A stretch of 63,736 bases of DNA from Anaerovibrio lipolyticus LB2005 (GTDB taxonomy: Bacteria > Bacillota > Negativicutes > Selenomonadales > Selenomonadaceae), in assembly GCF_000621545.1 (NCBI RefSeq), contig NZ_JHYA01000013.1:1-63736 (forward strand). The letters run 5' to 3'. A program made the translations under genes and the position numbers. Under the pieces are notes generated by a model that was given only the letters and a program-made list of their open reading frames with translations, ran no database searches and was not told where the DNA came from. This document shows, piece by piece, positions 51,925-63,471 of the stretch; positions within the stretch are counted from its first letter, which is position 1, and every line of letters starts with the position of its first letter.

Positions 51925-54120
51925 ATGAAAACAGAAAATATCAGTAAAATTATTGCTGACGAATTAAAAATAAAAGTATTTCAGGTTGATGCTGTTACGG
52001 AGCTTTTAGACGAGGGCAACACCATTCCCTTCATTTCCCGCTACCGTAAGGAAAAAACCGGTGAACTGGACGAGGAGAAGGTTAGGATTATCTCTGAACG
52101 CCTCACCTACCTCCGCAATTTTGTAAAACGCCAGGAGGAAATCATCAACAAGATAGAGGAACAGGGAAAACTAACCCCTGAGCTGCAGCTGGCCATCGAA
52201 AAAACCACTAAGCTACAGGAGCTGGAGGATATTTATCTTCCATATAAGCAGAAGAAGCGCACCAGAGCCCAGAAGGCCAAGGAAAAGGGCTTAGAGCCAC
52301 TGGCAAGCACTATTATTCTGCAAAATCTTGCTGTGGGTACTCCTGAGGAAGTGGCTGCGGAATACATCAATCCAGAGCTGGAGGTGGAAACGGCCCAGGA
52401 TGCCTTGGCTGGAGCTCAGGATATTATTGCAGAAATGATTTCCGAGGATGCCCAGCTTCGTCAGGAGCTGCGTAAATTCCTTTGGAATAACGCCTTTATT
52501 ACCACCACTTTGGACGAGGAAAAAGAAAACACCGCTGAGGGCAAAGTATTCCTGATGTACAAGGAATATAAGGAACTGGTGCGCACCCTGCCATCCCATC
52601 GTATCTTGGCTATTAACCGTGGCGAAAAGCTGGAATGTCTGAAGGTGAAAATGGAGGATGATGAGGAAAAAATTCTTTCTATCATTGGCAAGCGTTTCAT
52701 AAAAGGTAACTCCATTTTCCAAAGCCTTTTGAAAGACACTGTGGCTGATAGCTGGAAGCGTCTCATTCAGCCGTCCCTTGAAAGAGAAATCAGAAATCAG
52801 CTTACGGAAACTGCCGAAAAACAGGCTATTGATATTTTTGGAACCAACCTACGCCAGCTATTACTGCAGGCACCACTGGCAGGCTTTACAGTAATGGGAC
52901 TGGATCCTGGCTACCGCACTGGCTGCAAAATGGCTATTGTAGATCCAACTGGACATGTCCTCGACCATGGAGTTCTTTATATTACCCATGGTGAAAAAGG
53001 TGCCGCTGAATCTGCAAAAAAAGCACTGGCTCTTATCAAAAAATACAAGGTCAATCTCATTTCCATCGGCAACGGTACTGCTTCCTTTGAAACAGAGGAA
53101 TTTGCCGCCAAGCTCATAAAGGATAACGGACTTGATACCCACTACATAGTTACCAGCGAAGCTGGGGCCTCCGTATATTCTGCTTCCCCACTGGCAAAGG
53201 AGGAGCTGCCTGAGTATGATGTTACTATCCGCGGTGCAGTGTCCATTGCCCGCAGAGTGCAGGATCCATTGGCAGAGCTGGTAAAAATCGATCCAAAGGC
53301 CATTGGCGTCGGCCAGTATCAGCATGACGTAAATCAAAAGGAACTGGCCAATACTCTGGATCAGACCATTGAATCAGCGGTAAACCACGTTGGTGTAGAA
53401 CTGAATACTGCTTCCCCAGCCCTTTTGAAGCATGTGGCAGGCATAAATGCCACTATTGCCAAGAATATAGTAACCTACAGAAATGAAAATGGTCCTTTCA
53501 GCTCCCGTAAAGAGCTGCTAAAGGTAGCCCGTCTGGGCAATGCCGCCTACACCCAGTGTGCCGGTTTCCTGCGTATCGGCGGGGGCAAAATGCCTTTGGA
53601 CAATACCCCTGTACATCCTGAATCCTATGAGCTGGCCAAAAATATTTTGGCAAAATTAGGGGCCGATTTGGATATTTTAAATGACAAAAAGCAGCTGGAA
53701 ATGCTCCAGGCCAAAATAAAAATTGCTAATCCTGAAAAGCTGGCCAAGGACTTAAATGCCGGTGTACCAACTGTTAAGGATATTTTGGATGCTTTGTCCA
53801 AGCCTGGCCGTGATCCTCGTGAGGATCTGCCAGTGCCTCTTACCAGAAAAGCCATTGTAAAGCTGTCTGATATTAAGGTAGGTACCATTATGCGTGGTAC
53901 TGTCCGCAATATAACCGACTTTGGTGCCTTTGTAGATATTGGCATAAAAACCGCTGGTCTTGTACATATTTCCGAATTAAGTAACAAGCACGTCAAGCAT
54001 CCTTTGGATGTGGTGGCTGTTGGTGATATTGTCACCGTTCTGGTCATTAGCGTGGACGAAGCAAGGGGCCGTATTGGCCTTAGCATCAAACAGGTCCCTC
54101 AGGAGGCCAAGGCTATATGA
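51925..54120 (+). CDS. tex: Tex family transcription accessory protein
   Basis: 731 aa. Tex N-terminal domain (~1-190; IPFISRYRKEKTGELDEEKV, KLQELEDIYLPYKQKKRT), YqgF/RNase H-like domain (~325-460; VMGLDPGYRTGCKMAIVD, RIQPSDxG-like SEAGASVYSASPLA), helix-hairpin-helix region (VGVELNTASPALLKHVAGI, KARFGSR-like) and C-terminal S1 RNA-binding domain (~650-720; GTIMRGTVRNITDFGAFVDIG). It binds RNA and affects transcription or toxin expression. GGAGG precedes ATG 51925. The stop overlaps the next start. Confidence 0.95.
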   Translation: MKTENISKIIADELKIKVFQVDAVTELLDEGNTIPFISRYRKEKTGELDEEKVRIISERLTYLRNFVKRQEEIINKIEEQGKLTPELQLAIEKTTKLQELEDIYLPYKQKKRTRAQKAKEKGLEPLASTIILQNLAVGTPEEVAAEYINPELEVETAQDALAGAQDIIAEMISEDAQLRQELRKFLWNNAFITTTLDEEKENTAEGKVFLMYKEYKELVRTLPSHRILAINRGEKLECLKVKMEDDEEKILSIIGKRFIKGNSIFQSLLKDTVADSWKRLIQPSLEREIRNQLTETAEKQAIDIFGTNLRQLLLQAPLAGFTVMGLDPGYRTGCKMAIVDPTGHVLDHGVLYITHGEKGAAESAKKALALIKKYKVNLISIGNGTASFETEEFAAKLIKDNGLDTHYIVTSEAGASVYSASPLAKEELPEYDVTIRGAVSIARRVQDPLAELVKIDPKAIGVGQYQHDVNQKELANTLDQTIESAVNHVGVELNTASPALLKHVAGINATIAKNIVTYRNENGPFSSRKELLKVARLGNAAYTQCAGFLRIGGGKMPLDNTPVHPESYELAKNILAKLGADLDILNDKKQLEMLQAKIKIANPEKLAKDLNAGVPTVKDILDALSKPGRDPREDLPVPLTRKAIVKLSDIKVGTIMRGTVRNITDFGAFVDIGIKTAGLVHISELSNKHVKHPLDVVAVGDIVTVLVISVDEARGRIGLSIKQVPQEAKAI

Positions 54121-56057
54121 CGAATTTACCCGTAATAAAGGAAGAGGATTTCAAAGCTCTCATAGCTCAAATACCTCCCAAGGATACTGACAGTATAGAT
54201 GAAGTGGAAAGAATTCTTGCCACTTCTACCATAAAAAGGGATGATTTTGGTGCCCTTCGCTTTTTATTGAAAAAGTATGCCGGTGCTACGGGCTCTGCTT
54301 CATTTGAGGACAAGCCTGTAAAGGCTGTCACCATCTGCTGTGCCGACCATGGTGTTGCAAAGGAAAATGTCAGTGCCTACCCGCCGGAAACCACACTGCA
54401 CATGGTGGCAAATTATCTTATTTCCCACGGTGCTGCTGCCAATGTTTTTGCCGACTTCACAGGAGCTCATCTCTGTGTGGCAGATTTGGGCATAAATAGT
54501 GAAAAGGCCAAGGAACTCCCGGGACTTATAGATTTCCATATCGCCTCCGGCACTAATAATTCCTCCCAGGGACCGGCAATGACCAGAGAACAGGCAGTAA
54601 AATCCCTATACTACGGCTATTCTCTGGCAAAACAGCTCCACCAGCAACAGGGGATAACCATATTTCTGCCCGGTGAAATGGGTATATCCAACACCACCTC
54701 CAGTGCAGCTATTACCGCTGCTCTCCTTGAGGAATCCCCTGCCAACACCACCGGCAGAGGCACCAATATCTCCGATGAACGGTTCAAGACAAAGCTGGCT
54801 ACTGTGGAAAAGATACTGGCGATAAATAACCCAAATTCCAATGATCCCATTGATGTGCTGGCAAAAGTAGGGGGCTTTGAGCTGGGAGCCATTGCCGGAC
54901 TTATGCTTGGTGCCGCAGCGTCCCATTCCCTCACCATACTGGACGGCTTTAATTCCAGTGCCGCTGCCCTAATAGCTTTAAGATTGGCTCCTGTCCTCAA
55001 GGATTATCTTGTTCCTTCCCACAAAGCGGGAGAACAGGGACAGCACTTAATCCTTAAAGAATTGGATTTTACCCCAATTATGGCTTTAAACATTAAGCTG
55101 GGAGAGGCCATTGGTTCATCCCTTGTGGCTGACATTTTAGATGCCGCCATAAGAGCCTTTAAAAATATTCAAAAGGACCTGGCCGCCAAAGAGTTAATGG
55201 CAGATACCATCGAAAAGGATGTTATTCCCAACATAGCCATTACCCTGACTGATAAAACCTTTGATTATTATACTCGTACCATGCCGGACCTGGATAAGGA
55301 GGCCATGGAACGCTGTCAGATGCGGCTGGACAATTTATCAAAGCCTATCTACAGCTTGGGGGTAATTGAACAGATAGCCGCCCAGCTAAGTGGTATAACC
55401 TCCAACGAGCTGCCAAATGATATATCCAAAACAATGCTTTTCATTGGCATGAAAAAGGAAGCTGCATTAGATAAGGACCAAGCTGCTTTTATTCATAGCT
55501 TTACCACTCAAACAGGAGCCGAAGCTATTGCAGCCTATCTCACAGGAGAAAGGACCCAGATGGATGCCTTTGAATTTGGTCGTCTGCAGGGGGAAAATAT
55601 CTCTCTGGGGAGCCAAATCATGGGCCTTTCCCTTATAGATAACGACACTGCATTAATAGATGCCATGGCAAATATGCTGTGCGACACCCAGGGCAATCTA
55701 AAGCTCCAACCAGGTACCTTCATGACTCAGCTGCCTGGGGAAATGCAGCTAATAGCCTCCGCGGTTCTTGGGGCCATAATTGCCGCCACCCACAACCGCA
55801 CCATGATAATTCTTGGAGATAGGGCAGTAACCGCCTTGGCTAGCTATGCAGCTCAATTGGTACCGGAAATTCAGCCATTCCTTTTACCGATTGAACCGCC
55901 TTTGTACCACATGGCAGTGAAAATACCAGGCATAACGGCCTGCATAGGAATGCGTCTTGCAGATGCTGCTATTCATATAGTTAATGATATGAAAACCTTC
56001 AGCGAGGCCCAGGTGGCTACTGCCAACGACGGCCCAGGTGCCGGAAGACAAATATAG
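54117..56057 (+). CDS. Tandem CobT-like phosphoribosyltransferase (two domains, second degenerate)
   Basis: 646 aa, nearly double CobT (about 350). Residues ~30-350 are a full CobT-like domain: CCADHGVA (74-81), PGEMGISNTTSSA with Glu187, KVGGFELGAIAG, LDGFNSSAAALIA and NIKLGEAIG with catalytic Glu330. Residues ~403-646 restart with the CobT N-terminal helix (LDNLSKPIYSLGVIEQIAAQ) and continue as a second CobT-like fold, but the LGE motif is replaced by KIPGITA, so the base Glu is missing. CobT attaches the lower-ligand base to ribose phosphate in cobamide synthesis. The pattern recalls the Sporomusa ArsA-ArsB pair for phenolic ligands. ATG overlaps the tex stop by 4 nt (ATGA). Confidence 0.8.
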   Translation: MTNLPVIKEEDFKALIAQIPPKDTDSIDEVERILATSTIKRDDFGALRFLLKKYAGATGSASFEDKPVKAVTICCADHGVAKENVSAYPPETTLHMVANYLISHGAAANVFADFTGAHLCVADLGINSEKAKELPGLIDFHIASGTNNSSQGPAMTREQAVKSLYYGYSLAKQLHQQQGITIFLPGEMGISNTTSSAAITAALLEESPANTTGRGTNISDERFKTKLATVEKILAINNPNSNDPIDVLAKVGGFELGAIAGLMLGAAASHSLTILDGFNSSAAALIALRLAPVLKDYLVPSHKAGEQGQHLILKELDFTPIMALNIKLGEAIGSSLVADILDAAIRAFKNIQKDLAAKELMADTIEKDVIPNIAITLTDKTFDYYTRTMPDLDKEAMERCQMRLDNLSKPIYSLGVIEQIAAQLSGITSNELPNDISKTMLFIGMKKEAALDKDQAAFIHSFTTQTGAEAIAAYLTGERTQMDAFEFGRLQGENISLGSQIMGLSLIDNDTALIDAMANMLCDTQGNLKLQPGTFMTQLPGEMQLIASAVLGAIIAATHNRTMIILGDRAVTALASYAAQLVPEIQPFLLPIEPPLYHMAVKIPGITACIGMRLADAAIHIVNDMKTFSEAQVATANDGPGAGRQI

Positions 56058-63245: not shown

Positions 63246-63471
63246 AAAAAGCACCTCCCAATAAAAAATCCAAACAAGGGAGCAATAAAATGCCTAATTA
63301 AAAAAGCCTCCTCATCGCAAAGGATAAGAAGGCATATAAACACGAATAACAGCAAGCCTCACGGCCGCTGGTGCCATCCGTCTCAGTCCCAAGGATCTAA
63401 GCGAAAAAGTATTTATAAAAATTGAAGCAAATTAAAGAGTATGACTCCAAACGGATGCCATCCCTTGTCCA
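63246..63471 (-). promoter_or_regulatory. Riboswitch-like leader of the BASS-panC-panD operon
   Basis: A ~225-nt leader. Segment 63443-63459 pairs with 63373-63388 (13 bp with a small internal loop). Next comes a hairpin capped by a GTGA (GNRA) tetraloop (63350-63370: CAGC-g-GCC-GTGA-GGC-tt-GCTG), then an intrinsic terminator. CCTTG-GA-CAAGG at the 5' end offers an alternative fold. I do not recognise a known class; it is not a clear TPP, SAM, cobalamin or complete T-box pattern. Confidence 0.5.
63297..63333 (-). terminator. Intrinsic terminator inside the BASS leader
   Basis: Minus-strand GCCTTCTTATC and GATGAGGAGGC (63306-63316 / 63323-63333), 11 bp with two G-T pairs, followed by TTTTTTAATT. 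It lies 50 nt before the start codon. Confidence 0.8.

Follow-up and report, generated by a model that had tools for sequence, protein, structure and literature searches.

A single ATG-started open frame in Anaerovibrio lipolyticus LB2005 (54117-56057, forward strand) encodes a 646-residue protein with two CobT-like halves, which we interpret as a single-chain form of ArsAB. ArsAB is a two-protein enzyme, a nicotinate mononucleotide:phenol/p-cresol phosphoribosyltransferase, that attaches phenol-type lower ligands to cobamides. The single chain is likely to have one working site, in which the first half (A) would be catalytic, the second half (B) would be silent but lend its small domain, and the base would be phenolic. 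Positions are those of the window, the whole stretch of 63,736 nucleotides of contig NZ_JHYA01000013.1 that was analysed. The first-pass annotation had described a tandem CobT in one chain resembling a fusion of ArsA and ArsB, and both parts of this description agree with profile and phmmer searches, a structural model and a tree.

A fused relative of ArsA and ArsB

Both halves match CobT-type models. The best stretch of the Pfam DBI_PRT match (E 4e-109) covers residues 19-352, while residues 374-646 alone match two NCBIfam CobT models (E 2e-13 and 1e-12). We divide the protein into an A half (residues 1-352, 54117-55172), a linker with approximate boundaries (residues 353-385, 55173-55271) lying between the end of the ArsA match and the B helices in the secondary structure of the model, and a B half (residues 386-646, 55272-56054). 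The second half of the protein reads VKIPGITACIGM, and the chain ends in NDMKTFSEAQVATANDGPGAGRQI, a tail common to ArsB; its DGPG and final Q are missing in 7/7 CobT rows compared.

In phmmer searches of PDB sequences, the whole chain matched ArsA best (4hdk_A, E 8e-85, residues 13-350), with the best CobT match reaching 2e-61; residues 374-646 alone matched ArsB best, at E 8e-24 versus 5e-7 for the best CobT. The 74 rows of our tree comprise 32 A, 30 B, 7 CobT and 5 unassigned sequences; from the 44 fused proteins of a genome scan they take in 20 A halves and 18 B halves, and also four split pairs (L133, L135, L140 and L146) of 80 named loci. Split ArsA and ArsB from Sporomusa malonica, S. 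silvacetica, Pelosinus and Veillonella are among the rows, and the reference genes of S. malonica match those of S. ovata at E 8e-178 (ArsA) and 9e-159 (ArsB). The CobT labels of L002, L048, L049 and L051 had been assigned by similarity before the tree was made. All 32 A rows cluster together, ArsA of Sporomusa, Pelosinus and Veillonella among them (support 100/99), and the 30 B rows, fused B together with ArsB, form another apart from CobT (100/100); each was recovered in 100% of 200 bootstrap trees. The order of the two genes in S. malonica, ArsA then ArsB, is that of the halves of the 646-residue protein. Among other CobT-like genes of the Negativicutes, one copy from a further family (L035) adjoins the ArsA group while its other copy groups apart with L045 and L046, and the gene of another family (L047) falls with CobT.

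The fold of the full chain was predicted confidently by AlphaFold2 from 67 sequences (predicted local distance difference test, pLDDT, 95.4; predicted template modelling score 0.94), and Foldseek returned ArsAB chain A (4hds_A, 43% identity) as its best PDB match. VIA-align gave model residues 9-360 a Z of 44.6 to CobT and 41.8 to ArsA; the fold alone therefore does not separate A from CobT. A model of B alone (57 sequences, pLDDT 90.9) is nearest to ArsB chain B (Z 27.1, root-mean-square deviation 2.4, 244 residues aligned), in agreement with Foldseek, versus Z 24.1 for CobT and 23.4 for ArsA. By search, tree and structure alike, then, domain 2 lies nearer to ArsB than to canonical CobT. We conclude from these comparisons that the 646-residue protein is a single-chain ArsAB with A orthologous to ArsA and B orthologous to ArsB, and that it falls outside canonical CobT, since its halves group outside CobT. 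It is classed as a fused variant of ArsAB because one frame encodes what are otherwise two separate subunits.

It could be argued that the protein is a tandem CobT acting on benzimidazoles, its fusion being unrelated to phenol use. In keeping with this, it passes TIGR03160, the NCBI equivalog model for CobT (342.5 against a cut-off of 319.3). The separate CobT of the same genome (L002) scores 278.3, below the cut-off, although it groups with CobT in the tree; these two scores would therefore swap the names of the two proteins. The residues Tyr88, Met96 and Met188 of A, a triad associated with the use of phenol, correspond to the CobT substitutions S80Y/Q88M/L175M in the titles of PDB 4kqj and 4kqk and are found in 32/32 A rows of the tree, with Tyr replaced by Phe in 4/91 further fused A halves. 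The triad also occurs in the plasmid-borne cobT beside BzaF of Trichlorobacter lovleyi (pGLOV01, L180), and Deinococcus CobT has YML; we therefore dropped the triad as proof of phenol specificity. What speaks against a benzimidazole enzyme is that the two halves cluster with ArsA and ArsB and apart from CobT, that the genome has the separate CobT, in a eut run, and that BluB, BzaB and TIGR04385 gave no match above cut-off (for BzaB, the best score of 503.8 bits against 700 belongs to the ThiC gene; other Bza families were not sought). We consider a benzimidazole role improbable, and return to a single-chain ArsAB using a phenolic base.

The frame itself is well conserved. Eight relatives within the genus have a stop-free frame that is colinear along almost its full length (62-98% identity), and the B half shares 99% identity with its counterpart in A. 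lipolyticus DSM 3074 (L067). In the same family, an A half at E <=1e-50 is present in 136/141 genomes, and in 131 of these 136 it lies in a single open frame that measures at least 484 residues between stops (G282 only from query residue 173); among the remaining five, three genomes of a genus termed g19 have frames of 398-439 residues and two (G303 and G310) run off the contig end. Ratios of nonsynonymous to synonymous substitution (dN/dS) over seven pairs were 0.03-0.12 for B and 0.05-0.15 for A, rough values given that several dS exceed 1. An artefact of frame or fusion, or a decaying pseudogene, would fit the few frames that are broken elsewhere (L116, G282) or run off contigs; set against the many long open frames, the low dN/dS and the confident two-domain model, we give it practically no credence. 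The conserved frames and the substitution ratios indicate a gene that is not a pseudogene, with B under purifying selection rather than decaying.

Complementary loss between the halves

The first-pass annotation had noted a Glu in the LGE motif of domain 1 and KIPGITA at the same place in domain 2. Both are present: Glu330 (context ...IKLGEAIG..., codon 55104-55106) is the equivalent of Glu317, given as the general base of SeCobT in PMC9561151, and KIPGITA (55920-55940) stands in place of the Glu motif LGEG/LGEA. Among the tree rows, Glu is found at this position in 32/32 A, 11/12 split B and 2/18 fused B halves. A further 184 rows placed by mafft --add, which include L041 (A only) and the split pairs L042-L044 (L041-L044 being outside the tree and the first counts), gave 100/100 A, 2/8 split B and 1/76 fused B, so that overall 13/20 split B halves retain the Glu versus 3/94 fused ones. 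The ArsB chain of Sporomusa ovata reads NLGEGTG and thus retains it. The claim that domain 2 is an ArsB-like partner without the catalytic Glu stands as regards the loss, which is a trait of the fused lineage and not of ArsB as such. Two other catalytic positions follow the same pattern in the tree rows: E187 is Glu in 32/32 A versus 1/18 fused B, and N192 is Asn in 32/32 A versus 1/18 fused B. Alignment in the columns of the degenerate B core is uncertain.

The motifs of the small domain are distributed in the opposite way. K409, P410, E418, M625, T627, F628 and V633 are present in 30/30 B rows of the tree, and in 81 (the other three having Met), 84, 82, 83, 81, 84 and 82, respectively, of 84 further B rows. 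In fused A, the tree rows have Pro at the equivalent of P410 in 6/20 and Glu at that of E418 in 3/20, and further fused A halves have the Pro in 19/91; split A is intermediate (9/12 for each). Because the fused-A rows of the alignments are cut at the end of the profile match, their C-terminal gaps were not counted and untrimmed fused chains, all distinct, were used instead: M-x-T/S-F-x-x-A/V/T occurs within 52 residues past the LGE of A in 0/79, while M-x-T/S-F occurs in the last 50 residues of 79/79 (9/88 chains without a recognisable LGE were left out).

The invariant columns among 67 fused proteins (alignment A2, without L067, L087, L091 and L116) divide along the same line. All 54 of A lie in residues 75-333 and none in 1-74, while the 13 of B comprise five in the N-terminal small-domain segment (residues 386-433, ...RLDNLSKPIYSLGVIEQIA..., 55272-55415), none in the core, an eroded large domain (residues 434-604, 55416-55928), and eight in the C-terminal helix and tail (residues 605-646, ending in NDMKTFSEAQVATANDGPGAGRQI, 55929-56054), which match the C-terminus of ArsB. 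The locus L116, whose A half is broken across two frames, is outside the untrimmed and 184-row tests and is counted as fused in the tex survey below. Judged by the aligned residues, A has kept the catalytic positions and lost the terminal small-domain motifs, and B is the reverse, having lost most catalytic positions.

This division recalls how CobT builds its site. In the dimer, the neighbouring chain reportedly contributes a small domain made of N- and C-terminal parts (Cheong and colleagues, 1999). CobT has one domain per chain, unlike the 646-residue protein. As described in PMC9561151, it is a homodimer, and the base pocket of the Salmonella enzyme is built by components from both chains, while one chain of the archaeal CobT forms the pocket alone. 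Compared with CobT (Salmonella 1D0S and others), the fold here is alike, the catalytic positions match A and the small-domain motifs match B. Sporomusa ovata ArsAB (PDB 4HDK, 4HDM, 4HDN, 4HDR, 4HDS), whose ArsA resembles A and whose ArsB resembles B, shares the C-terminal NDMKTFGEAEVAVAQDGPGALRQ tail with the 646-residue protein, but has two chains of which ArsB retains its Glu, versus one chain here with the second-half Glu missing.

For all five archaeal CobT rows, judged by the first and last aligned residues, the alignment to the model of the fused chain starts at A residues 45-64 and ends at B residues 624-642, nearing the archaeal C-terminus; this is as expected if the last helix of B sits on A in the position that the corresponding helix takes in the archaeal chain. 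Likewise, the B tail has a pLDDT of 91/85 in the full chain versus about 70 in B alone, the two models being based on different alignments. Both are hints from models that the B segments lie at the A site. We therefore propose that the catalytic large domain of A, with Glu330 as general base, would make the alpha-ribotide of a phenolic base (phenol or p-cresol), which would then become the lower ligand of a cobamide. B would be non-catalytic and would take over, within the same chain, the role that the adjacent subunit has in a CobT dimer, its small domain of N-terminal KPxxSLG helices and C-terminal helix and tail completing the base pocket of the A site. The ancestral dimer would have had two composite sites, and complementary loss could in this way have left a single chain with only one of them. 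The suggestion that domain 2 is a structural partner thus seems right in that B is apparently non-catalytic; as to its being merely structural, the conserved parts of B are those expected to complete the base pocket of A, and its role probably goes beyond a structural one.

Shortened forms and the weighing of the model

The length of B varies among relatives. The longer split ArsB frames encode 357-431 residues and the other split ones 267-327, compared with about 290 residues past the A match in the 646-residue protein (292; 257-405 in most fused loci read). In the genus g6, 134-139 residues follow the A match in 5/5 genomes (frames of 484-512 residues), and the remnant of B consists of the N-terminal helices with KPxxxLG, the last helix and the DGPG tail. 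In g13, the A match begins at residue 65-71 in 20/20 rows, and in 3/4 frames read no more than 21 codons separate the opening of the frame from the match, the fourth (L165) having 56 residues before it. In g19, 121-123 residues follow the A match in 3/3 genomes (frames of 398-439 residues), a Met lies nine residues before DHGVA and the N-terminal part of A is absent upstream in frame, giving a domain order of large then small, like that of a circularly permuted CobT. The sizes thus run from 646 residues through g6 (484-512) and g13, without the A N-terminus in 3/4 frames read, to g19 (398-439), which has both losses. The short B parts had a dN/dS of about 0.15 in 2/7 pairs; synonymous sites were saturated in the other five.

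In the scheme of permutation by duplication set out in PMC3320104, a tandem fusion loses its redundant parts, and working half-truncated intermediates are predicted. The present series may follow this course of tandem fusion and loss of redundant parts; unlike in the scheme, the two members of the tandem had already diverged here, and what was lost from each is the half of a shared site that the other kept. We are inclined, with some reserve, to see a circular permutation in progress: a homodimer with shared sites would have become a heterodimer with complementary losses, then one chain, from which the B large domain (g6) or the A N-terminus (g13) was lost, and finally both (g19), ending as a permuted, possibly monomeric CobT-fold enzyme of about 390 residues that carries the borrowed lid of its ancestor in cis.

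These forms also bear on the idea that domain 2 is a passive dimerisation or stability module and that the A site is complete without it. A degenerate core with no invariant column in residues 434-604 is what such a module might look like. Yet the invariant columns that B does have fall in the small-domain segments, the same segments are retained in the shortest forms while A has lost its own copies, and B is under purifying selection; a passive role appears unlikely, though less so than a benzimidazole substrate. A composite A site completed by B remains our preferred account.

Several observations weigh against that account. D276 is still Asp in 15/18 and 48/76 fused B halves, T194 is still Thr in 8/18, and loss of the Glu is uneven in split B. 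In L042-L044, split pairs from three other families (f15, f8 and f9), the DGPG tail is missing from the B-like partner, a shorter gene some 740-880 bases downstream of the ArsA-like gene, not adjoining it, in which KP and TF are kept. The remnant of B in g19 has MP for KP and lacks the tail, and its A half has Phe for Tyr88; either these features are dispensable there or the g19 chain has another role. The Tyr/Met/Met triad is shared with a Trichlorobacter CobT, as noted above, and the account as a whole draws on sequence and models. Finally, the entry behind one archaeal row of the five, 3l0z, is called incorrect in PMC9561151.

Genomic context, spread and significance

Upstream of the gene lies tex (51925-54120, forward strand), identified by its frame and profile match, whose stop overlaps the start of the 646-residue frame by four nucleotides (ATGA, 54117-54120). 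The overlap had been considered unusual; it is in fact conserved and ordinary. A tex gene is found at most 1.5 kb upstream in 51/67 fused loci with enough DNA, within 200 nucleotides in 49 of these 51, and its stop reads ATGA in 37/51. Among split loci, 0/10 have tex within 1.5 kb upstream.

Of 134 relatives, the 80 most similar to the B half were kept, a choice that biases the fused share upward; 70 of them are fused and 10 split. The fused records are those named Anaerovibrio, Schwartzia, Selenomonas, Mitsuokella, Megamonas, Propionispira, Centipeda and metagenome-assembled genomes, several of the single-chain records being from rumen samples, judged by their titles; the split ones come from Sporomusa, Pelosinus, Anaerospora, Veillonella and metagenome-assembled genomes. 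Class-wide, 281/300 genomes have some match at E <=1e-20, CobT relatives included, and among 128 plasmid records with CobT-like matches none covers 80% of the query in one place. A record labelled Acholeplasmataceae (L130, JAAYVM010000136.1, 4903-6852) has a split arsA and a short arsB, with its A part among Sporomusa-type sequences, and is probably a mis-binned Negativicutes contig. A single origin of the fusion was not upheld: parsimony on a quick tree of A halves (34 from fused and 17 from split loci) requires four changes, and starred branches force two, so that there may have been several fusion events or a later reversal. Within the A group of the 74-row tree, ArsA of Veillonella magna (L146), which has ArsAB in two genes versus one in the fused lineage, is placed on the side of that lineage, with weak support (87/21); V. 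parvula is described as preferring phenolic bases in PMC4657239.

For corrin-ring synthesis of the anaerobic type, the A. lipolyticus genome has cbiC, D, E, F, G, H, J and T, with cobB, cobQ, cbiB, cobU and cobS (not every step was sought), and two acyl-CoA mutases of the methylmalonyl-CoA mutase type gave matches above cut-off. HydE and HydG are present, HydG at 929.5 bits. HydG splits tyrosine into p-cresol, CO and cyanide, and p-cresol should therefore be at hand in the cell. ThiH was rejected as a p-cresol source, as its best match (281 bits against a cut-off of 380) is the HydG gene. The separate CobT gene lies in a run of eutA-eutB-eutC-cobT-cobC (4311-9551 of L152, contig C2 of G000), which suggests a separate cobamide for ethanolamine ammonia-lyase. 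No cobalamin riboswitch was found in the window or in three stretches around cbi and eut genes at gathering scores. The window of this Negativicutes genome also contains an Rfam pan motif (RF01749, 58.3 bits, 63374-63464, reverse strand).

Searches of an open-licence library listed no description of a single-chain ArsAB, although other papers or supplements may have it. The BluB/CobT2 protein of Propionibacterium freudenreichii (PMC4657239) is also a natural fusion with a CobT domain, but joins ligand synthesis to activation, whereas the 646-residue protein joins two CobT homologues. Makers of phenolyl cobamides were defined by two adjacent cobT genes in a survey that counted 27 species (PMC6461909); a single-chain gene would therefore be missed by that definition. 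Automatic annotation would name the gene a dimethylbenzimidazole-specific CobT, so that the wrong cofactor would be predicted. According to a 2021 review (PMC8123684), phenolyl cobamides make up 20-34% in the bovine rumen, with only two producers known, and single-chain forms could help to explain this share. The shortened B halves, for their part, amount to a set of deletions made by nature, from which the regions of ArsB needed by the enzyme can be read, and they may record permutation by duplication step by step.

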